NCBI GenBank assembly: GCA_028284885.1
Contig: JANQQW010000252.1
Span: 1 to 38,142 of the forward strand
DNA from: Planctomycetaceae bacterium
GTDB lineage: Bacteria > Planctomycetota > Planctomycetia > Planctomycetales > Planctomycetaceae
Direction of reading: 5' to 3'
Length of the DNA stretch: 38,142 bases
The notes beneath the pieces are model-generated. The model was not told where the DNA came from and made no database searches. It saw only the letters and a program-made list of their open reading frames with translations. The position numbers and the translations under genes are program-made. Shown one piece after another: positions 25,999-38,142 of the stretch (its first letter is position 1; each line of letters opens with the position of its first letter).

Positions 25999-28509
25999 TC
26001 ACACGTCGAGGTCCTTCACCTCCAACGCGTGCTTCTCGATGAACTCCTTCCGCGGGCCGACCTGGTCGCCCATGAGCACGCGGAAGATCTCGTCGGCCGC
26101 GGCGGCGTCCTCCATCGTCACCTGGATCAGCGTCCGGCTCTCGGGGTCCATGCTGGTCGCCCAGAGTTCGTCGCTGTCCATCTCGCCCAGCCCCTTGAAG
26201 CGGGTGAGCCGCAGACCCTTCTCGCCTTCCTTCCGCAGGTCGGCGAGCAGGTCCCGCAGGCTGGGGATGTGGAGTGTGCGGTCCTCCTCGGTCGTCGCCG
26301 TGAACGGGAAGACCGGTTCGCCCTCGCGGGGGTCCGGCTGGTAGAGGGCGTGGCGGTCGAGTCCGAACTGCTCTTCGAGCTCCGCGAGGACCTGGTTGAT
26401 CGTGCGAACCTCGTGGAGATCGACGACCTGCAGCGTGTTGGCCGTGTCCGGTTCCTCGTCGGCGTCCGCCGTCGGAGCGGTCGTCTGGTCGGCCACGCGG
26501 AGTTCCTCGCCCCGCTCCCGCTCCTGTTGTTCCAGGAACGTGTCGAGGGCTGCCTTGTTCTCCAGCCAGTACTCCTCCCGGCCGACGAACACCCGGAACC
26601 GCGGCAACCGGCCGGCCTCGGTCGCGAACTGCGTGCACAGCCGCTTCAGGTCGATCCCGCGGCGTTCCAGCAACTCCAGCGGCGAGTCGCGTCCGTCGAG
26701 CGGCGCGAGCGTCTTCGCCAGGTCCCGCAGCCGCGGCTCGTCGAACTCGACCGGCGTCGCCGACTTGTCGCCGTTCGGCAGGTACACGAGGTGCGTGCCG
26801 GAGAGACCGAGTTCGAGGAGTTCGGTGTTCATCTCCTCCTCGGTCTGCACGTACCGGGGCTCGGCCTTCTTCTTGCCGGACTTCGGCAGCACGCGGAACA
26901 GCGGCGGCTGGGCGATGTAGACGCAGCCCTCCTTCACGAGCTGCCGCATGTGGCGGAACAGGAAGGTGAGCAGCAACGTGCGGATGTGCGAGCCGTCGAC
27001 GTCGGCGTCCGTCATCACGACGAGCTTGCCGTACCGCCGCTTGGCGATGTCGGTCTCCTCGGCCTGGGGCGGGATGCCGATCGCCTTGAAGATGTTGGCG
27101 ACCTCGGCGTTCCCCAGGATCTTGACGAGCTGGGCCTTCTCGACGTTCAGGATCTTGCCGCGGAGCGGAAGGATTGCCTGGATCTCGGCGTCACGACCGG
27201 TGTCCGCCGAGCCGCCGGCCGAGTCCCCTTCGACCAGGTAGACCTCGGTGCGATTCAGGTCGCGGGACCGGCAGTCGCGGAGCTTCTCGGGCAGCCCGCC
27301 GGTGGTGGTGGTCTTCTGGTTGCGGACGAGTTCGCGGGCCTTCTTGGCGGCCTCGCGGGCCTCGGCAGCCGTCTGGGCCTGGGAGAGGATCGTCTTGGCG
27401 ACCGACGGATGTTCCTCGAGGTACCGGCCGAGCTGCTCGTTCACGACCGACTCGACGATGCCGGCCACCTCGGAGTTGACCAGCTTGACCTTCGTCTGCG
27501 CCTCGAACTTCGGGTCCGGGTGGCGAATCGTGACGACCGACGCGAGCCCCTCGCGGAAGTCCTCCCCCTGGGGCGTGGCCGTCTTGAAGAGATTCTGCTT
27601 CGTGCCGTAGGCGTTCAGCGTTCGCGTGAGGGCGGAGCGGAAGCCGGAGAGGTGGGTGCCGCCGTCCGAGTTGTAGATGCCGTTGGCGTAGCAGCGGGTG
27701 TTCTCGGTGTTCCCGTTGTTGTACTGCAGCGCGATGTCGACTCCGACGCCGTCGCTCTCACCGGAGAGCCGGATGACGTCGGGGTGGAGCGGGACCTCGG
27801 TGCGGTTGAGGTGCTGGACGAAGGCGACGAGGCCGTCCTCGTAGTGGAACGTGTCGGACTGGCCGGTTCGCTCGTCGCGAATCTCGACCCGCATGCCGGC
27901 GTTCAGGAAGGCGGCGTCCTGCAGCGTCTTGTGCAGCGTGTCGTAGGAGAGGTTGGTGTCCGGGAAGACCTCGCCGTCCGGCTTGAAGGTGACCTTGGTC
28001 CCGGTCTGGTCGGTCTTGCCGAGCTTGGTGAGCTGGGCGGTGACCTCGCCCTTGGCGAACTCCATGGTCCAGACGTGCCCTTCGCGGCGGACCTCGGCCT
28101 CGAGCCACTCGGAGCAGGCGTTGACGGCCGTGATGCCGACGCCGTGCAGGCCACCCGTTCCGACGGCGTAGCCTCCCTCGCGGTCGAACTTGCCGCCGGC
28201 GTGGATCTCGGTGAAGACGACCTCGAGCGCGGACCGGCCGCTGTCGCCCATCTTGCCGACCGGGATGCCGCGGCCGTCGTCGGTGACGGTGCAGCTGCCG
28301 TCGGCGTTGACCACGACGGAGCAGAAGGTCGCGTTCTGCTGGACGAACTCGTCGACGGAGTTCGAGAAGAGCTCGTAGACGAGGTGGTGCAGGCCGTGCG
28401 AGTCGACGCCGCCGATGTACATCGAGGGGCGAAGGCGAATGCCCTCGATCCCCTCGAGCTGGCGGATGTTGTCCTCGGTGTAGTTGCTCTTCGGCTTGTC
28501 TTCGCTCAC
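25999..28509 (-). CDS. gyrB: DNA gyrase subunit B
   Basis: GyrB supplies the ATPase of the gyrase tetramer that introduces negative supercoils. The GTG at 28509, with GGAG six bases upstream, gives 836 residues, the long form with an insert. The GHKL ATPase shows VYELFSNSVDE (Glu46, Asn50), DDGRGIP (from 77) and GTGGLHGVG. The TOPRIM domain shows EGDSAGGSA (near 426) and DADVDGSHIRTLLL (near 500). A lineage-specific, poorly conserved insertion occupies about 560-760, between the TOPRIM core and the C-terminal RFKGLGEM segment. It is the last gene of the origin-linked cluster dnaA, dnaN, dciA, gyrB. The matching gyrA is not in the window. Confidence 0.97.
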   Translation of the reverse strand: MSEDKPKSNYTEDNIRQLEGIEGIRLRPSMYIGGVDSHGLHHLVYELFSNSVDEFVQQNATFCSVVVNADGSCTVTDDGRGIPVGKMGDSGRSALEVVFTEIHAGGKFDREGGYAVGTGGLHGVGITAVNACSEWLEAEVRREGHVWTMEFAKGEVTAQLTKLGKTDQTGTKVTFKPDGEVFPDTNLSYDTLHKTLQDAAFLNAGMRVEIRDERTGQSDTFHYEDGLVAFVQHLNRTEVPLHPDVIRLSGESDGVGVDIALQYNNGNTENTRCYANGIYNSDGGTHLSGFRSALTRTLNAYGTKQNLFKTATPQGEDFREGLASVVTIRHPDPKFEAQTKVKLVNSEVAGIVESVVNEQLGRYLEEHPSVAKTILSQAQTAAEAREAAKKARELVRNQKTTTTGGLPEKLRDCRSRDLNRTEVYLVEGDSAGGSADTGRDAEIQAILPLRGKILNVEKAQLVKILGNAEVANIFKAIGIPPQAEETDIAKRRYGKLVVMTDADVDGSHIRTLLLTFLFRHMRQLVKEGCVYIAQPPLFRVLPKSGKKKAEPRYVQTEEEMNTELLELGLSGTHLVYLPNGDKSATPVEFDEPRLRDLAKTLAPLDGRDSPLELLERRGIDLKRLCTQFATEAGRLPRFRVFVGREEYWLENKAALDTFLEQQERERGEELRVADQTTAPTADADEEPDTANTLQVVDLHEVRTINQVLAELEEQFGLDRHALYQPDPREGEPVFPFTATTEEDRTLHIPSLRDLLADLRKEGEKGLRLTRFKGLGEMDSDELWATSMDPESRTLIQVTMEDAAAADEIFRVLMGDQVGPRKEFIEKHALEVKDLDV

Positions 28510-29066: not shown

Positions 29067-30179
29067 TCACCGTTCCCGCGACAGCGGCATGGCGACGTAG
29101 GTGTAGCCGTCGTCGGTGCGGAAGACGGCGGGGCTCTCGGAGTCGATCAGGTGCAGCTTGATCGGCCGTTCCGGTTCGAGGACGCGGAGGAACTCGGCGA
29201 TGAACCGCGGGTCGAACGTGATGCCGATCTGCTCGCCCGGGTAGTCGATGGGGAGTTCGATGGTCGACGAACCGACGTCGGCCGCGACGCTCTTGAGGAC
29301 CAGGTTCCCCTCGCCGAACTCGAAGTCGACGCCGCGGCTCTCCTCGTTTGTGACGATCTGCGACTGCCGCACCACCGAGTAGAACGGGCCGACGGTCAGT
29401 TCGATCTCCGCCTTCGACTGGGCCGGGATGACGTCCCGGTACCGCGGGAAACGGCCCTCGACGAGCCGGCTGTAGATGGTGGACGAGCCGACGCGGAACA
29501 GCACGTCGTTCGCGTGGACGGCGACGTGGACCTCCTGGTCGTCCCCGCCGATGCTCCGCTCGACCAGCTGCATGGCCTTCGAGGGGACGACCGGGTCGGA
29601 GTTCCCCAGTTCCGGCGAGCCCTCGGGGCGGCCCTTCGTCTCGACGACGGCGAGACGACGGCTGTCGGTCGCGGCGAGCGTGACGTCGCCGTCGCCCAGC
29701 TCCAGCTTGATGCCACCGAGGGCGTAGCGGGTGCTCTCCTCGTCGGTGGCGAACAGCGTGCGTTTGATCGCCTCGCGAAGCGTGCCTCCTTCGATGACGA
29801 AGTAGGCCGCGTCGGCGAACTCGGCGACGGGCGGGAACTCCGACGGGTCCTCGGCTCCCAGGCGGAACGAAGCCTGACCGGAGCTGATGTGGACGGCGTC
29901 CCCGTCGAGTTCGACGTCGACCGTCTCGCCGGTCGCCTCGTTGAGGATCTGGATGACGCGGGCCGTCGGGAGCAGCGTCTCGCCGGCGACCTCGATCTCG
30001 ACCTCGGGAACCTCGAAGCGGATGCCGACCTCCTGGTCCGTGCCGACGAGCATGACCTTCGAGTCGGCGGCCGAGAGCTTGACGTTCCGGAGGACGTCCT
30101 TGGGCGTGCGTGACGGCACGACGCCGTTGACGATCTTCAGGGCGTTGGCGAGAGCAGCGCGTTGGAAGTGGAGCTTCAT
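29067..30179 (-). CDS. dnaN: DNA polymerase III beta subunit (sliding clamp)
   Basis: DnaN forms the ring-shaped dimer that tethers DNA polymerase III to DNA and recruits repair factors. The 370-residue length and three-domain layout fit the family. It starts MKLHFQRAALANALKIVNGV and contains TLFATDEESTRYALGGI, ATDSRRLAVVE and VEGRFPRYRDVIP. It ends with the conserved hydrophobic-pocket and C-terminal strand YTYVAMPLSRER. It starts at an ATG at 30179 next to the putative origin gap and is transcribed away from it. A hairpin at 30270-30300 lies in its upstream region. Confidence 0.97.
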   Translation of the reverse strand: MKLHFQRAALANALKIVNGVVPSRTPKDVLRNVKLSAADSKVMLVGTDQEVGIRFEVPEVEIEVAGETLLPTARVIQILNEATGETVDVELDGDAVHISSGQASFRLGAEDPSEFPPVAEFADAAYFVIEGGTLREAIKRTLFATDEESTRYALGGIKLELGDGDVTLAATDSRRLAVVETKGRPEGSPELGNSDPVVPSKAMQLVERSIGGDDQEVHVAVHANDVLFRVGSSTIYSRLVEGRFPRYRDVIPAQSKAEIELTVGPFYSVVRQSQIVTNEESRGVDFEFGEGNLVLKSVAADVGSSTIELPIDYPGEQIGITFDPRFIAEFLRVLEPERPIKLHLIDSESPAVFRTDDGYTYVAMPLSRER

Positions 30180-30647: not shown

Positions 30648-31682
30648 TCAATCGACCCCGAGATCCCGTCGGAGCGCATGGAGCCGTTGGCCGAGCGCCG
30701 GGTCGCTTTGTTCGAGTTTCCGAATCTTCGTGCAGGCGTGCAGGACCGTGCTGTGGTTCTTTCGTCCGAAGAACGCGGCGATCGACTGCAGCGACTCCTC
30801 GGTCAACTCGCGGGCGAGGAACATCGCACACTGACGCGGCACGGCGTGCTCGCGGGAGCGGTCACCGTTGCGGACCTGTGCGAGCGGAATCTCGAAGGAG
30901 CGAGCGACCGACTTGGCGATCGTGGCAAGCTCGACCTTCGGTCGTGGAACCTCGCGTGAGAGGTATCGCGCGACCATGGCACGGTCGATGGGCGACCGCG
31001 TGTCGCGGGAGGTCATCTCGAGCTGCAGGATCGCCGAGAGCAGGAGTCGGGGACACTTCGGGCCCTCGCGAGCCAGCTGCTTCAGCACGTCGAGGGAGAC
31101 GGCGATCTGCCGAGCCGAGGCGAAGTGGCCCAGCAAGCTCGTGCGGCTCGCCTTGCCCAGCGGCTCGACGGCGGCGTTCACGCCCGCTCGACAACGGTCG
31201 ACGAGTCGCGGAACCGTGCCGCGGAGTTCTCCCGGCGCGCGGGTCGAGGTGAGCAGGACGCGACCGCCGAGGGTGAGGACGTCGTCGATCAGGTGGACGA
31301 GGCGTTCTTGGGGATTCGTCATCCCCTCCAGGCCCTGCAGGTCCTCGACGACGAGCAGGTCCAGCTCTGTGTAGGCGGCGCGGAACTCGTCGACGGCGTC
31401 CCCGTCGATCGCCTTGCCGAGATCCGCGGCGAATTCGGCCGCCGTCGTCACGACGTGAGGCGACCCGTCCGCGAGATACGGGTCCTCCGCGAGGAACCGT
31501 CGCAGCAGGTGCGTCTTGCCGATGCCCGACGGACCGTGCAGGTAGACGAGGGACGGGCCGCGGCCCCCTTCACGGCGGGACAACTGCCGCACGGCCGTGT
31601 GCGCGAACCGGTTCTCCTTCAACAGCAGGAAGGACTGCGCGAACGGGTCCGCGATCCCGGAGGCAACGAGGCTCGAGGTCAC
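30648..31682 (-). CDS. dnaA: replication initiator DnaA, short form
   Basis: DnaA binds origin boxes and melts DNA to start replication. The 344-residue product begins almost at the AAA+ domain (ENRFAHTAVRQL at 23-34). Walker A is GPSGIGKTHLL (50-60) and Walker B LDLLVVEDLQ (107-116). The C-terminal DNA-binding domain contains AVPRQCAMFLARELT and the signature GRKNHSTVLHAC. Domains I and II, which bind DnaB and other regulators and make other DnaAs about 450 residues long, are missing. The GTG start at 31682 is well supported: AAGGAG at 31691-31696 lies eight bases upstream, and GTGA overlaps the stop of the cysteine desulfurase gene, implying translational coupling. Confidence 0.93.
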   Translation of the reverse strand: MTSSLVASGIADPFAQSFLLLKENRFAHTAVRQLSRREGGRGPSLVYLHGPSGIGKTHLLRRFLAEDPYLADGSPHVVTTAAEFAADLGKAIDGDAVDEFRAAYTELDLLVVEDLQGLEGMTNPQERLVHLIDDVLTLGGRVLLTSTRAPGELRGTVPRLVDRCRAGVNAAVEPLGKASRTSLLGHFASARQIAVSLDVLKQLAREGPKCPRLLLSAILQLEMTSRDTRSPIDRAMVARYLSREVPRPKVELATIAKSVARSFEIPLAQVRNGDRSREHAVPRQCAMFLARELTEESLQSIAAFFGRKNHSTVLHACTKIRKLEQSDPALGQRLHALRRDLGVD

Positions 31683-32852: not shown

Positions 32853-33545
32853 TCAATTGTGGTCGGGCAGCGCGGACTTCGCATCCGTCCCGAAGTCGTT
32901 CACCACGAGTTCCAGCCGAAACTCGCTGTTCGAGCCCTGCGGACGGATCACCACGAGAAGGCCGGCCACACCGCTCGGGACGTCGTCGGTCAGCCATCGG
33001 CTGGAGGTCAGCGTCCCCCCCAGCGGCTTCTCGAGAGACCGCGTTCCCTTCCGACCCGTCGCCTCGATCGTCCCCCTCTGCCACGGGAACTTCCGCTTCT
33101 CGAGTGTCTCGTCCGCCTTCACGGGTTGGTGCAGCATCGCCCCCGCGAAGGAGAGGTCCATCTTCTTCGGCTCGACCTGCTGGACCGCCCCGTCCCCTTC
33201 CCGGAACCAGATGCGAACCGCGTGGTCGACCGGGTCCGACCCGTCGCCCAGGTGCTTCACCGGCACGAGCAGCTTGTACAACTGCGTGGCCCGCTCGCCG
33301 TCGTTCATCTCGAGTTCGATCCAACGGCAGGGTTCGTCGCCGAAGGACTCGGCCCCGAGGGACCGCAGCCTCGCCGTGCCGTTCGACTCCGTGGTGTCGA
33401 ACTTGAGGGTCGCGTGGTACTCGACCCACTCGCCGGACTTGGGGAGCGTTCGGAGGATTCCGTCGGCGAAGCAGGCCGGCGTCCACGCGAGCAGCAGGGC
33501 GGCGAAGAAGACGTTTCGAACGGGTCGCAGACAGGTTCTCGACAT
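32853..33545 (-). CDS. secreted protein of unknown function
   Basis: The 230-residue product has a signal peptide (about residues 1-27, RNVFFAALLLAWTPACFA). The mature part reads as a beta-rich domain with alternating strands: LPKSGEWVEYHATLKFD, ESFGDEPCRWIELEMND, VDHAVRIWFREGDG and FRLELVVNDFG. It contains one conserved-looking cysteine-tryptophan pair (PCRWIE) and no known catalytic motif. The cysteine at residue 25 is not in a clear lipobox. The stop lies 4 bp before the cysteine desulfurase start, so it heads the operon leading to dnaA. It is divergent from the FHA-EAL gene. Confidence 0.72.
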   Translation of the reverse strand: MSRTCLRPVRNVFFAALLLAWTPACFADGILRTLPKSGEWVEYHATLKFDTTESNGTARLRSLGAESFGDEPCRWIELEMNDGERATQLYKLLVPVKHLGDGSDPVDHAVRIWFREGDGAVQQVEPKKMDLSFAGAMLHQPVKADETLEKRKFPWQRGTIEATGRKGTRSLEKPLGGTLTSSRWLTDDVPSGVAGLLVVIRPQGSNSEFRLELVVNDFGTDAKSALPDHN

Positions 33546-33666
33546 CGGCGTCGATCCGTATCGGTTTCTCGTGAGCGGCGAGTCTCGAAGCTAGCCGGTC
33601 GGCGTCGGTCTCGCCACGACAATCCGCACGAACGTCACCACCGCATCCGCAGCGGCCGCGTTCTGC

Positions 33667-33686
33667 CGACAACCTCCTCGTTGTCG
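33667..33686. promoter_or_regulatory. small hairpin in the divergent promoter region
   Basis: CGACAAC and GTTGTCG form a perfect 7-bp stem with a CTCCTC loop, in the 248-bp region that must hold the promoters for the operon leading to dnaA (leftward) and for the FHA-EAL operon (rightward). It could be an operator. No clear promoter boxes were identified in this G+C-rich stretch. Confidence 0.3.
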
Positions 33687-33793
33687 TCTCGCGTCGGCCG
33701 ACACGGCCTACGTTTCCCACGAGCAACACCGCGCCAACCTCGCGCCAGACGGTCCGAGGTGCGGTCGCGGGACGAGGGCCTGGAGCATCGCGG

Positions 33794-34942
33794 ATGGTTC
33801 CGAACGGAGACAACCTGAGAGTGGCCGACGCCGCCTCGGCGTCGGAGCGACCGCGGGTCTCGGTCTGGGCCCTGCAGGGTGAGGCGGCGTCCAACGCCAC
33901 GCCCAGCCGGACCGCCGTCACCGCGAACCCGTTCAGCATCGGCCGCAGCTCGAAGAACGACCTCTGCCTCTCCGACCCGACCGTCTCCGGTCGACACGCG
34001 GAACTGGTCGAACTCGCCGACTCCTTCCTGGTTCGCGACCTCGACAGCACGAACGGGACGTTCCTGAACGGTCGCCGCGTCGAACGGCACGAGATCGTCG
34101 GCCCGAACGACGTGCTCCAGTTCGGCGCCGTCGCGTACCGACTCGTGCGAACGGACGGGGGGCTGAACGCGACCCCGTCGCACGCGTCGTCCTGCACCGT
34201 CGCCTCGGACGTGGCGACCGACGCCGTCGCGTTCGTGCAGTTCGAGAAGATGCTCGCCGAGCGCGCGGTCGTCCCGCACTTCCAGCCGATCGTCACCCCG
34301 GACGGCAGCCGCGTCGCGTACGAGATCCTCGGTCGCAGCCGGCTGTTCGGACTCGAGTCGCCGGCGGCGATGTTCCGGACGGCGACCCGGCTGCAGTCGG
34401 AGGTCGCGCTCAGCCGGATGCTGCGGCAGGAGGGGGTGCGTGCCGCCAGCGAGCTCGCCCCGCCGACCAGGCTCTTCGTGAACACGCACCCGACGGAGCT
34501 GATCGAGCCGGGCCTCGCCGAGTCGATCTGGGCCCTCCGCGCCGCGTTCCCCGGACCCGAGCTCGTCCTCGAGGTCCACGAGGCGGCGGCGACCGACCTC
34601 ACCACGCTGCGGTCCCTGACCGAGTCCCTCCGCGAGATCGGCGTCGGCATCGCCTACGACGACTTCGGCGCCGGGCAGTCTCGGCTGATGGAGCTGACCG
34701 ACGTGCTGCCGGACTACGTGAAGTTCGACATCGGGCTGATTCGCGACATCGACACGGCCAACGCGCAGCGTCAGGGCGTGGTGCGGTCGCTGGTGAAGAT
34801 GGTCCGCGACCTGGGCGTCACGACGCTCGCCGAGGGCGTGGAGACCGAGGCCGAGGCCGAGACCTGCTGGGAGATGGGCTTCGAACTCGCCCAGGGCTAC
34901 CTCTACGGCCGCCCGGCCCCCGCAAACGACTGGAACGACTGA
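33794..34942 (+). CDS. FHA-EAL protein (predicted c-di-GMP phosphodiesterase)
   Basis: The 382-residue cytoplasmic protein joins two signalling domains. Residues about 40-118 form an FHA phosphothreonine-binding domain with GRSSKNDLCLSD (50-61), SGRH (65-68) and STNGT (85-89). Residues about 145-375 form an EAL domain that would hydrolyse c-di-GMP. Expected active-site residues are present: Glu177 (YEILGR in place of EAL), Asn230, Glu260, Asp289-Asp290 (DDFGAG), Lys310, Glu348 (AEGVE) and Gln367 (QGYLYG). The ATG at 33794 has GGAG eight bases upstream. It is followed 67 bp later by the AAA+ gene and then the kinase-tubulin gene, so the FHA domain may bind a product of that kinase. Confidence 0.92.
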   Translation: MVPNGDNLRVADAASASERPRVSVWALQGEAASNATPSRTAVTANPFSIGRSSKNDLCLSDPTVSGRHAELVELADSFLVRDLDSTNGTFLNGRRVERHEIVGPNDVLQFGAVAYRLVRTDGGLNATPSHASSCTVASDVATDAVAFVQFEKMLAERAVVPHFQPIVTPDGSRVAYEILGRSRLFGLESPAAMFRTATRLQSEVALSRMLRQEGVRAASELAPPTRLFVNTHPTELIEPGLAESIWALRAAFPGPELVLEVHEAAATDLTTLRSLTESLREIGVGIAYDDFGAGQSRLMELTDVLPDYVKFDIGLIRDIDTANAQRQGVVRSLVKMVRDLGVTTLAEGVETEAEAETCWEMGFELAQGYLYGRPAPANDWND

Positions 34943-35009
34943 AGACCGAAGCCGACCGCCGCTCGCCCCCTCGAGCAGGCGTTGAACACGACAGACCGGG
35001 AGGGACCCA

Positions 35010-36341
35010 GTGACCGTCACGTTCCACGAGTCGCACGACTCGATCCTCGCCACGCTCGCCTCGGGCGAGACGTTCTGGCCGTCCGAGCCTCGCACCCTCG
35101 AGGAGACGGGCCTGTCGCAGCCGTTCGTCGAGGCGCTGCTGTGCAAGACGCTGTTCGTCGCCGGCAACGCGACCGGCCGCAACCTCGCCAAGGACGTCGG
35201 CCTCCCGTTCGGCGTCGTCGACGACCTGCTCAGCAGGCTCCGCAACCGGCAGTGGGTCGTCCACGTCGACTCCGGCGCCTTCAACGACTACGTCTACGGA
35301 CTCACGGACAACGGCCGCCAGCAGGCCCAGGCCTTCAAGAACGCGAACGCCTACGTCGGCCCGGCCCCGGTCCCGCTGATGGACTACGTCATCTCCGTCG
35401 AGGCCCAGGCCATCGGCGGCGAGCCGATCCGACGCGCCGACCTCGAGGACGCCTTCCACGACATCTCCGTCGATCCCGGCCTGTTCGAGATGCTCGGCCC
35501 GGCGGTCAACTCGGCGTCCGGCCTGTTCCTGTACGGTGCCCCGGGCAACGGGAAGTCGACCCTCGCCCAGCGGATCACCGCCTGCTTCGGGCAGGAGGTC
35601 TGGATCCCCAACGCCGTCCTCGACGACGACGACCTGCTCAAGGTCTACGACCCCGCCTACCACGACGACGTCCGGACCAGTTCCAGCGAGCACGTCGAGA
35701 CGACCGGCTTCGACCGCCGTTGGCGACGCATCCGCCGGCCGACCGTGGTCGTCGGTGGCGAGCTGACGATGGACAACCTCGAGATCCGCCAGGACGCCCG
35801 GTCCGGCATCTGCGAGGCGCCGCTGCAGATGAAGAGCAACTGCGGCTGTCTGCTCATCGACGACTTCGGTCGCCAGCGAATCCTCCCCGAGGAACTGCTG
35901 AACCGCTGGATCGTCCCGCTCGAGAACAAGCACGACTTCCTGACCTTCCCGAACGGCAAGAAGATCCAGGTCCCGTTCGAGCAGCTGATCATCTTCTCGA
36001 CGAACCTCGACCCCGAGCAGCTCGTCGACGAGGCCTTCCTGCGGCGGATTCCGTACAAGATCGAGGTCGAGGACCCGACCGAGCAGGAGTTCCAGCAGCT
36101 GTTCCAGCTCGCCGCGGACGCGATCGACTGTCCGTTCGACCCGGAGGCCGTGGAGTACCTGCTGGAGACACAGTACCGCGGCCGCAACCGGCCGCTGCGG
36201 CGGTGCCATCCGCGAGACGTCCTCAAGCAGGTCCGCAATCTCTGCGCGTACGACGAGCGTCCGCTGGAGATGAAGAAGGAGTACTTCGACCAGGTGGCGA
36301 AGGGCTTCTTCACGCAGGTGCTGCCGACGGTGGAGGTCTGA
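35010..36341 (+). CDS. AAA+ ATPase with winged-helix-like N-terminal domain
   Basis: The GTG at 35010, with GGGAGGG just upstream, gives 443 residues. Residues about 25-115 resemble a winged-helix domain (TGRNLAKDVGLPFGVVDDLL, then LTDNGRQQAQ). A linker with PAPVPLMDYV leads to an AAA+ core: Walker A GAPGNGKST (about 176-184), Walker B CLLIDDFG (about 280-287), a sensor-like IIFSTNLDPEQL and an arginine-rich AFLRRIPYKIEV. A C-terminal helical lid region follows. It probably remodels a protein or DNA partner in an ATP-dependent manner; the target is unknown. Its stop is 4 bp before the kinase-tubulin gene, so the two are surely co-transcribed. Confidence 0.88.
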   Translation: MTVTFHESHDSILATLASGETFWPSEPRTLEETGLSQPFVEALLCKTLFVAGNATGRNLAKDVGLPFGVVDDLLSRLRNRQWVVHVDSGAFNDYVYGLTDNGRQQAQAFKNANAYVGPAPVPLMDYVISVEAQAIGGEPIRRADLEDAFHDISVDPGLFEMLGPAVNSASGLFLYGAPGNGKSTLAQRITACFGQEVWIPNAVLDDDDLLKVYDPAYHDDVRTSSSEHVETTGFDRRWRRIRRPTVVVGGELTMDNLEIRQDARSGICEAPLQMKSNCGCLLIDDFGRQRILPEELLNRWIVPLENKHDFLTFPNGKKIQVPFEQLIIFSTNLDPEQLVDEAFLRRIPYKIEVEDPTEQEFQQLFQLAADAIDCPFDPEAVEYLLETQYRGRNRPLRRCHPRDVLKQVRNLCAYDERPLEMKKEYFDQVAKGFFTQVLPTVEV

Positions 36342-36345
36342 GCCG

Positions 36346-38142
36346 ATGACCGACCCTCGCGAGACGACCTCCGACCCGTCCGAGGAGCCGATCGACCGGA
36401 CGATCGCCCGCACCATGAACGTGGGCGGTGGCCCGTTGCCCGAGGCCCCGCCTCCCACGTCCGAGCGGACCACGATTCCCGGCTACCAGCTGCTCGAACG
36501 AATCGGTGCCGGCGGCTACGGCGAGGTCTGGCGGGCCCTCGCGCCCGGAGGTCTCGAGAAGGCCGTGAAGATCGTCTACGGGACGATCGACGGCACCCGG
36601 GCGACGACCGAACTCAAGTCGCTCGAACGGGTCAAGCACGCCCGGCACCCGTTCCTGCTCGTGCTCGAACGGTTCGAGATCCTCGACGGCAAGCTGATCG
36701 CCGTCACCGAACTCGCGGACGGCAGTCTGAAGGACAAGTTCGACGAGTACCGGGCCGCCGGGAAGCCGGGGGTGCCCCGGGCCGACCTGCTGAAGTTCGT
36801 CCGCGACGCCGCCGACGCGCTCGACTTCATGTACGACAAGCACGGCCTCGTCCACCTGGACGTGAAGCCGGAGAACATCCTGCTCGTGGGGGACCACGCG
36901 AAGGTGGCCGACTTCGGCCTCACGCAGTGCCTGCACGACGAGAACCTGTCGGGCCTCGGCGGGCTCACGCCGCAGTTCGCCGCGCCCGAGGTCTTCGAGG
37001 GTCGCCCCTCCCGGCACAGCGACCAGTACAGCCTCGCGATCCTGTACCAGCTGCTGCTGACCGGCCAGTCGCCGTTCAACGGCCGCACGGCCGCACAGCT
37101 CACCGCGCAGCACATGCACAGCGCGCCGGTGCTCTCGCCCCTTCCGCCGTCGGACCGGCCCGCCGTCGCGCGGGCCCTCTCCAAGAACCCGAGCCAGCGG
37201 TTCGGCTCGTGCGTGGAGATGGTCGAGAGCCTGCTCGAACGACCGTCCGCACGGGTGTCGAAGTCGGCCCGACCGAGTCGTCGCTCGGCCAACCGGCTCA
37301 CGGTTCCGACCGACGACGTGGAGGCCCAGATCGCCTTGCGGTTCGGGACGCCACCGCCGCCCGCCGTCCAGGACCACCAGCTGCCGCCCGCAGTGGTCCC
37401 GACGACTCCCTCGACCGGCTCGTCGCTCGTCATCGGCCTCGGTGGCCTGGGGGGCCGTGTCGTCCGTGAACTGAACGCAATCAACCGTCGCGACCGCCGC
37501 GACGGGCTCGTCTCGTACCTCTACTTCGACACGGACGCCACGTCCGTCAACGCGGTCGGGGACTCCTGTTCGAACAGCTCGGTCTCGGCAGTCTCGGTCC
37601 CGCTGCGGACCGCGTCCCACTACCGCCGCGACGCTGGTCGCTGGCTGGAGTGGATCGACCGTCGCTGGTTGTACAACATTCCGCGGTCGCTACGGACCGA
37701 GGGGATTCGTGCCCTCGGCCGACTCGCGTTCGTCGACCACGAGTCGCTCGTCGCCGATCGCGTCCGACGCGCCCTCGAGGCCCTGCCGGCGAACGAGGAG
37801 GGCGAGGCTCACGTCGTGTACGTCGCCTGTTCGAGCTCCGGTGGAACCGGCAGCGGGTCGCTGCTGGAGATCGCACGCGTGCTCTGGGCGACGGCCGAGC
37901 AGCTCGACCTGAAGATCGACGTGCGGGCTGTGGTCGCCCACGTCGGCAAGCGAACCGAGTCGCACACGGGCGTCGGCGTGGCGAACACCGTCTCGCTGTT
38001 GTCCGAGCTCCGCCGCGTGCAGGACGAACGACAGTCGCAGACCGCCGCCGACCTCGACGACCCGCCGATCGGCTTCTCCGAGGTGCTGTTCACCGCGGCG
38101 GGCGACGGGCTCACCGGCGGGGGTCGCGGCGACACGGCCCGG
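36346..38142 (+). CDS. Ser/Thr kinase fused to a tubulin/FtsZ-like domain (3' truncated)
   Basis: The frame is open from an ATG at 36346 to the window end (599 codons, no stop). GGAGGT at 36332-36337 supports the start. Residues about 46-300 are a Hanks-type kinase: glycine loop IGAGGYGEVW (53-62), Lys75 in AVKIV, catalytic Asp172 in HLDVKPEN, DFG (189-191) and APE (213-215). HLD replaces HRD, so it is a non-RD kinase. A Pro/Ser/Arg-rich linker (about 300-357) leads to a tubulin-like GTPase domain beginning LVIGLGGLGGRVVREL (361-376). It carries the tubulin signature loop SSSGGTGSGS (496-505), with the expected helices after it. There is no membrane segment in the visible part. This may be the Tubulin_2/FtsZ-like family. 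The rest lies beyond the window. Confidence 0.9.
   Translation, partial: MTDPRETTSDPSEEPIDRTIARTMNVGGGPLPEAPPPTSERTTIPGYQLLERIGAGGYGEVWRALAPGGLEKAVKIVYGTIDGTRATTELKSLERVKHARHPFLLVLERFEILDGKLIAVTELADGSLKDKFDEYRAAGKPGVPRADLLKFVRDAADALDFMYDKHGLVHLDVKPENILLVGDHAKVADFGLTQCLHDENLSGLGGLTPQFAAPEVFEGRPSRHSDQYSLAILYQLLLTGQSPFNGRTAAQLTAQHMHSAPVLSPLPPSDRPAVARALSKNPSQRFGSCVEMVESLLERPSARVSKSARPSRRSANRLTVPTDDVEAQIALRFGTPPPPAVQDHQLPPAVVPTTPSTGSSLVIGLGGLGGRVVRELNAINRRDRRDGLVSYLYFDTDATSVNAVGDSCSNSSVSAVSVPLRTASHYRRDAGRWLEWIDRRWLYNIPRSLRTEGIRALGRLAFVDHESLVADRVRRALEALPANEEGEAHVVYVACSSSGGTGSGSLLEIARVLWATAEQLDLKIDVRAVVAHVGKRTESHTGVGVANTVSLLSELRRVQDERQSQTAADLDDPPIGFSEVLFTAAGDGLTGGGRGDTAR

Follow-up and report, generated by a model that had tools for sequence, protein, structure and literature searches.

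A planctomycete kinase–Tubulin_2 fusion gene in a recurrent neighbourhood with a specific AAA+ ATPase and an FHA-EAL protein

The fusion of a protein kinase to a tubulin-like GTPase domain in planctomycetes was published in 2010 (Makarova and Koonin, PMC2875224), and it was reported again for Tubulin_2 proteins (Santana-Molina et al. 2023, PMC9871819) and once more in 2024 (PMC11032199). In the planctomycete branch of this FtsZ-like-1 family (FtsZl1; Tubulin_2, PF13809), an N-terminal kinase and an FtsZ-like GTPase domain, both present in the protein considered here, are followed by a coiled-coil and helical C-terminal region, and no T6-H7/T7 can be recognised. On the function of the family, the literature searched offers only a membrane-remodelling proposal and the alternatives from its review (PMC2875224). 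The partners listed in 2010 were vWA, P-loop GTPase and OmpA-type proteins. A reviewer of that paper pointed out that Pirellula staleyi has an EAL gene close to FtsZl1, and the authors set such cases aside since only a few close organisms were concerned (PMC2875224). A further system to compare is that of the GAP1-N2 GTPases, where the available portion of the source (Kaur et al. 2020, PMC7159879) describes tubulin plus coiled-coil proteins, with the tubulin domain fused to a coiled-coil or helical C-terminal domain and with an NTPase partner, as in the present family; in contrast, that portion describes no fused kinase.

The window studied here is the whole of a 38,142-nucleotide contig (G000:C45) of a Planctomycetaceae bacterium. 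From the ATG at 36346 a frame of 599 codons stays open on the plus strand up to the final base, and because the window is the complete contig, the gene must be cut at the contig end. Full-length relatives measure 1071–1215 aa, and about 490 C-terminal residues are absent from the assembly; the initial annotation had called for the remainder of the gene, and no continuation was found in the other contigs of the genome. The closing ten or so residues (38116–38142, GGGRGDTAR) disagree with the family alignment, possibly because sequence quality is low at the contig end. The features of the gene are as follows.

36346–38142, plus strand: 5' part of the kinase–Tubulin_2 (FtsZ-like-1) fusion gene, 599 aa of about 1080–1100
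36484–37203, plus strand: Hanks-type Ser/Thr kinase domain, aa 47–286 (Pfam PF00069, Pkinase, E 1.5e-27)
36853–36861, plus strand: HLD in place of HRD, a non-RD catalytic loop, from the sequence
37246–37425, plus strand: S/T/P-rich linker from the kinase to the GTPase domain, from sequence composition
37426–38040, plus strand: Tubulin_2 GTPase domain, aa 361–565, covering positions 1–242 of the 356 of the profile (PF13809, E 4.1e-19)
37426–37461, plus strand: T1 glycine loop LVIGLGGLGGRV, aligned to the FtsZ T1 by hhalign
37528–37536, plus strand: T2-like DTD (FtsZ NTDAQAL), aligned to FtsZ by hhalign, Asp invariant in 23 fusions
37660–37689, plus strand: RRWLYNIPRS, a motif specific to AAA+-partnered fusions, located after strand S3 and ahead of the T3 loop
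37837–37857, plus strand: T4 loop SGGTGSG, from the sequence

The initial annotation read this frame as one polypeptide with a complete non-RD Hanks kinase, a low-complexity linker and a tubulin-superfamily GTPase domain. That reading stands, as Pkinase and Tubulin_2 are both matched within the single frame, and the identities of the parts are near certain. The further suggestion of a new type of protein does not, since the architecture has been in print since 2010, and the two partner genes directly upstream had been overlooked. In the kinase, the GxGxxG glycine loop, the VAIK-type Lys, HLD (in HLDVKPEN) and DFG are all intact; the catalytic motifs are kept in relatives, and H-L-D is invariant among 23 aligned fusions. 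The kinase is also the most conserved region of the fusion, with a mean column conservation of 0.65–0.76 as against 0.3–0.6 elsewhere. The equivalent of the linker is disordered in the predicted structure of a relative (pLDDT under 50).

For the GTPase domain, the profile search that the initial annotation had proposed gives 69.5 bits with Tubulin_2 against a cut-off of 27, and a sub-threshold match only with the tubulin/FtsZ profile PF00091 (16.8 bits against 33). Its own genome, rated 100% complete, contains no second PF13809 match. As the initial annotation had expected from classical planctomycetes, this genome has no recognisable FtsZ: PF00091 has no match in it, versus 13 of 14 control genomes that were positive. 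Both glycine loops are present as first described, T1 with the segment LVIGLGGLGG and T4 in the canonical form. In a profile–profile comparison by hhalign, the GTPase part aligns with FtsZ at P 1.1e-4 (decoys 0.088 or worse), with T1, T2, T3 and T4 collinear. This likeness extends to the wider group of FtsZ, TubZ and CetZ, from which the fusion differs by its score below the PF00091 cut-off, its N-terminal kinase, a helical region of about 330 residues after strand S7 in the family, and the missing T7. No FtsZ-type T7 (NxDxxD) is apparent in the family alignment of 23 fusions, in agreement with the finding of Makarova and Koonin (PMC2875224). The T4 loop is relaxed as well: its first two glycines are invariant in the aligned fusions, exact GGTGSG occurs in 6 of 23 and GGTG in 10 of 23, and the variants among relatives include GGTASG, GGTCSG, GGITSG and GGLGSG. 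With no apparent T7 and a relaxed T4, polymerisation-coupled GTP hydrolysis is doubtful for the family, the canonical T4 of the window copy notwithstanding, and the relaxation of T4 in over half of the relatives is evidence against obligatory GTP control.

Structure prediction, also proposed at the outset, was done on a full-length relative (L117, 1090 aa; 23 sequences, mean pLDDT 78, pTM 0.50). In the model, the kinase (about 30–285) is joined by a disordered linker (288–326) to a Rossmann core (348–622) whose strands and helices succeed one another as in tubulin, so that the topology of the GTPase core fits the tubulin type. The core is followed by a strand (646–656), the helices and, at the terminus, a beta-alpha-beta-beta unit (1012–1081). 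Its elements follow the same order as in the FtsZ C-domain, but the hhalign alignment is not significant (P 0.62). The long helices of the model would correspond to the coiled-coil/helical C-terminal trait of the family, a region before which the window gene ends. Foldseek matches of the whole model were swamped by kinases. Taken together, the profile, profile–profile and predicted-structure checks favour membership of the tubulin superfamily over a different fold or another Rossmann-type family.

Directly upstream of the fusion, on the same strand, are the genes of the two partners.

33794–34942, plus strand: FHA-EAL protein (Pfam FHA E 6.1e-19, EAL E 1.7e-43)
33935–34126, plus strand: FHA domain, aa 48–111, with the phosphothreonine-binding residues G50, R51, S65, H68 and N87
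34196–34198, plus strand: Thr135 codon in the FHA-EAL linker, candidate phosphoacceptor; a Thr lies within 3 columns in 34 of 34 module proteins
34241–34915, plus strand: EAL domain, aa 150–374, nine catalytic positions kept (ENEDDDKEQ)
35010–36341, plus strand: AAA+ ATPase with N-terminal winged-helix region, ending 4 bases before the fusion ATG
35535–35561, plus strand: Walker A of the AAA+ protein, GAPGNGKST, G176–K182 largely invariant
35859–35864, plus strand: Walker B Asp-Asp in LLIDDFGRQR, D284 and D285 invariant

A promoter and terminator scan of 33500–36500 yielded nothing above chance. An origin-like cluster of minus-strand genes, gyrB (25999–28509), dnaN (29067–30179) and a gene for a short DnaA-like protein (30648–31680), lies a few kb from the module; since the other neighbours of the module are not conserved elsewhere, this closeness may be a coincidence.

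The AAA+ protein was modelled (pLDDT 82) as a winged-helix-like N-terminal region plus an AAA+ domain. The best fold matches are an uncharacterised Pyrococcus furiosus AAA+ protein (8p49), BchI, Lon and MCM, all with low TM-scores. A spastin-like AAA protein was considered and rejected, as matches to the spastin, VCP, Msp1 and Vps4 profiles are confined to short, mostly P-loop stretches; an analogy to tubulin severing was dropped because the fold comparison points to BchI/MCM/NtrC-type AAA+ proteins. The winged helix could indicate a DNA-directed AAA+ ATPase. The corresponding subtype in relatives is 53–67% identical to the AAA+ protein of the window. Most relatives also have winged-helix AAA+ paralogs at about 38–52% identity (L098 to L114 and L145 to L196), in many cases several to a genome and mostly without conserved neighbours.

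The FHA-EAL protein combines a phosphothreonine reader with a c-di-GMP phosphodiesterase-type domain and is encoded upstream of the AAA+ gene. The phosphothreonine-binding residues are invariant in 34 of 34 orthologs, and 29 of 34 aligned proteins have the whole catalytic and metal-binding set of EAL. Of the others, L041, L043, L045 and apparently L127 no longer have the catalytic residues, and the L042 protein is truncated at a contig end. Three of these proteins (L041:7063–8268, L043:11703–12800, L045:10987–12084) keep the FHA domain and the linker Thr, so that the part that reads phosphorylation persists where the enzyme is gone, and c-di-GMP hydrolysis cannot be a universal output. The arrangement resembles that of the OdhI/GarA phospho-switches, in which a kinase targets a Thr of an FHA protein that lies beyond its FHA domain. 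In both cases a conserved Thr lies in a flexible segment adjacent to FHA, whereas the candidate Thr of the FHA-EAL protein follows the FHA domain and links it to EAL. As a module-specific phospho-site this Thr had to be rejected: it is equally present, within 3 columns, in 23 of 23 non-module FHA-EAL proteins and thus cannot be assigned to the fusion kinase, and it is at best a candidate for a family-wide phospho-switch. The idea of an obligate FHA-EAL partner was likewise rejected, given that the family occurs in 27 of 59 relatives, many without the fusion; the protein is a frequent, non-exclusive neighbour. A GGDEF gene with intact motif precedes the FHA-EAL gene in five loci (L039:5720–6709, L040:14345–15376, L097:5977–7137, L117:5626–6678, L118:5701–6717), pairing a cyclase-type with a phosphodiesterase-type enzyme; these GGDEF proteins have a CBS-like N-terminal region. 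The window has no GGDEF gene next to FHA-EAL.

Fusion, AAA+ and FHA-EAL genes recur together in about 35 planctomycete loci. Among 59 relatives, 20 fusion neighbourhoods were compared, and the fusion, AAA+ and FHA-EAL clusters are the only ones that recur in more than 4 loci; the AAA+ subtype is present in 11 of the 20, as well as in L097. When neighbourhoods are selected by the AAA+ subtype instead, the window and each of the further cases (12 of 12) contain all three genes, mostly adjacent. The vWA, P-loop GTPase and OmpA-type partners of 2010 are not among the recurrent neighbours, as far as clusters were compared (not all of them are annotated), and in this respect the setting differs from that described for FtsZl1. 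A scan of the named genomes with AAA+ alone gave 80 loci, and the fusion lies within the locus in 23 of the 28 closest (L117–L144) versus none of the 52 paralogous AAA+ loci. In these 23 the AAA+ gene usually adjoins the fusion, with FHA-EAL on the other side, and the genes are co-directional or divergent. Four exceptions (L121, L124, L125 and L127) have no fusion at the AAA+ locus and an RRW-type kinase fusion elsewhere in the genome, so the association of fusion and AAA+ survives the loss of linkage. The fifth (L143) is apparently an AAA+ paralog by sequence, and its genome has no Tubulin_2; neither does that of the paralog control L155.

The motif RRW[x][x][N/G/H]xP (RRWxYNxP) distinguishes the fusions of this module. 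All 40 module-type fusion loci that were examined have it, the four unlinked ones included, and it is found in 0 of 22 non-module fusion rows, which come from two other planctomycete families and count some genes twice. At a threshold of 770 bits or more (the next best match scores 622), the AAA+ subtype and RRW-type fusions coincide among the 59 relatives: the same 12 genomes have both, neither occurs outside them, and the 7 genomes whose fusions are all non-RRW have no AAA+ of this subtype. On the evidence of these sequences, the fusion is tightly co-inherited with the AAA+ subtype and the motif. The profile scores of the AAA+ proteins favour fusion neighbours because the profile was built from them, the locus counts are not independent events because the sampled genomes are related, and some named loci may duplicate others (L132 and L048 look identical). 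In the literature searched, no description of the AAA+ pairing and the matching RRW motif was found, and this conserved setting appears to be undescribed.

In a tree of kinase domains that includes 10 plain kinases, 53 of 53 fused kinases group in one clade apart from these (support 100), which agrees with the fusion having arisen once; this is a quick tree in which the plain kinases are long branches. Non-module fusions are nested beside module fusions, as would be expected if the RRW motif and the partner were lost together. Genomes of family f3 (L051 to L055, related loci) have two or three non-RRW kinase–tubulin paralogs each, without the AAA+ partner, and in L056:7995–15253 a pair of them, of about 1190 aa each, lies head-to-tail.

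A functional partnership of the fusion and the AAA+ protein is, in our view, very probable. How the parts act is more tentative. The fusion, a member of the FtsZ-like-1 family, would act in the cytoplasm as a signalling kinase. Its tubulin-type domain would most likely be a platform for self-association that depends on nucleotide and sets the activity of the kinase, and multimer contacts would be made by the long helical part at the C-terminus. The dedicated AAA+ ATPase would probably remodel or disassemble the kinase–tubulin complex. The FHA domain of FHA-EAL could read the phospho-signal, possibly after phosphorylation of the conserved linker Thr, to which FHA would then bind, and thereby adjust c-di-GMP turnover; in some loci GGDEF likely joins the output. 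We favour such a nucleotide-regulated kinase complex, remodelled by AAA+ and read out by FHA-EAL through c-di-GMP, over a new division cytoskeleton, as a possible reading that falls somewhat short of probable, and the sequence of steps and the part played by GTP are equally tentative. The stricter version, a signalling machine in which the RRWxYNxP-marked fusion is an obligate AAA+ client and an FHA-read phosphothreonine acts on a c-di-GMP phosphodiesterase, seems rather doubtful.

The initial annotation had raised a regulated cytoskeleton. In this rival reading, which also takes up the membrane-remodelling idea of Makarova and Koonin, polymers of the tubulin-like domain would be controlled by the kinase through phosphorylation of linker or filament, and would shape membranes or help division in a cell that has no FtsZ. 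The superfamily membership, the S/T-rich linker and the absence of FtsZ (PF00091) from the genome fit this, as does the argument that every characterised superfamily member forms filaments (PMC2875224). Yet T7 is not visible, T4 is relaxed in most relatives, and no conserved membrane or envelope gene accompanies the fusion in the neighbourhoods compared. The distribution is patchy, and with any match to the tubulin part in only 19 of 59 relatives, this domain cannot generally replace FtsZ in division. A division cytoskeleton substituting for FtsZ is thus unlikely, and so is a regulated cytoskeleton in general. The missing T7 and the T4 variants could also mean that the tubulin-type domain has become a degenerate, non-hydrolysing scaffold of a multimeric kinase in which nucleotide has no regulatory role; the kinase as the best conserved region agrees with this. 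Retention of T1, T2, T3 and two T4 glycines, and the canonical SGGTGSG of the window copy, speak against it, and we regard this explanation as quite unlikely.

The same patchiness would suit a conflict or stress response, with kinase–tubulin and AAA+ forming a chaperone-like guard complex analogous to the systems of Kaur et al. 2020, given the tubulin plus coiled-coil proteins in the portion of that source available (PMC7159879). PADLOC gives a weak match of the AAA+ protein to IetA, but this spans short stretches only and the kinase matches are generic; a defence system was rejected on these grounds. Moreover, no variable effector, conserved vWA, HSP70 or TRAFAC GTPase is found among the recurrent neighbour clusters, the last three being a point of difference from the GAP1-N2 systems as that portion presents them, and the FHA-EAL partner is a signalling enzyme. 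A conflict system is therefore very improbable.

If the kinase is indeed controlled by the tubulin-type domain, the preferred signalling complex would convert a state of a tubulin-superfamily protein into Ser/Thr phosphorylation within one polypeptide. The association with EAL, put to one side in 2010 as local to a few organisms, has turned out to recur in about 35 loci, and the co-inheritance of AAA+ and RRW gives the FtsZl1/Tubulin_2 family a concrete partner and a set of residues to mutate.
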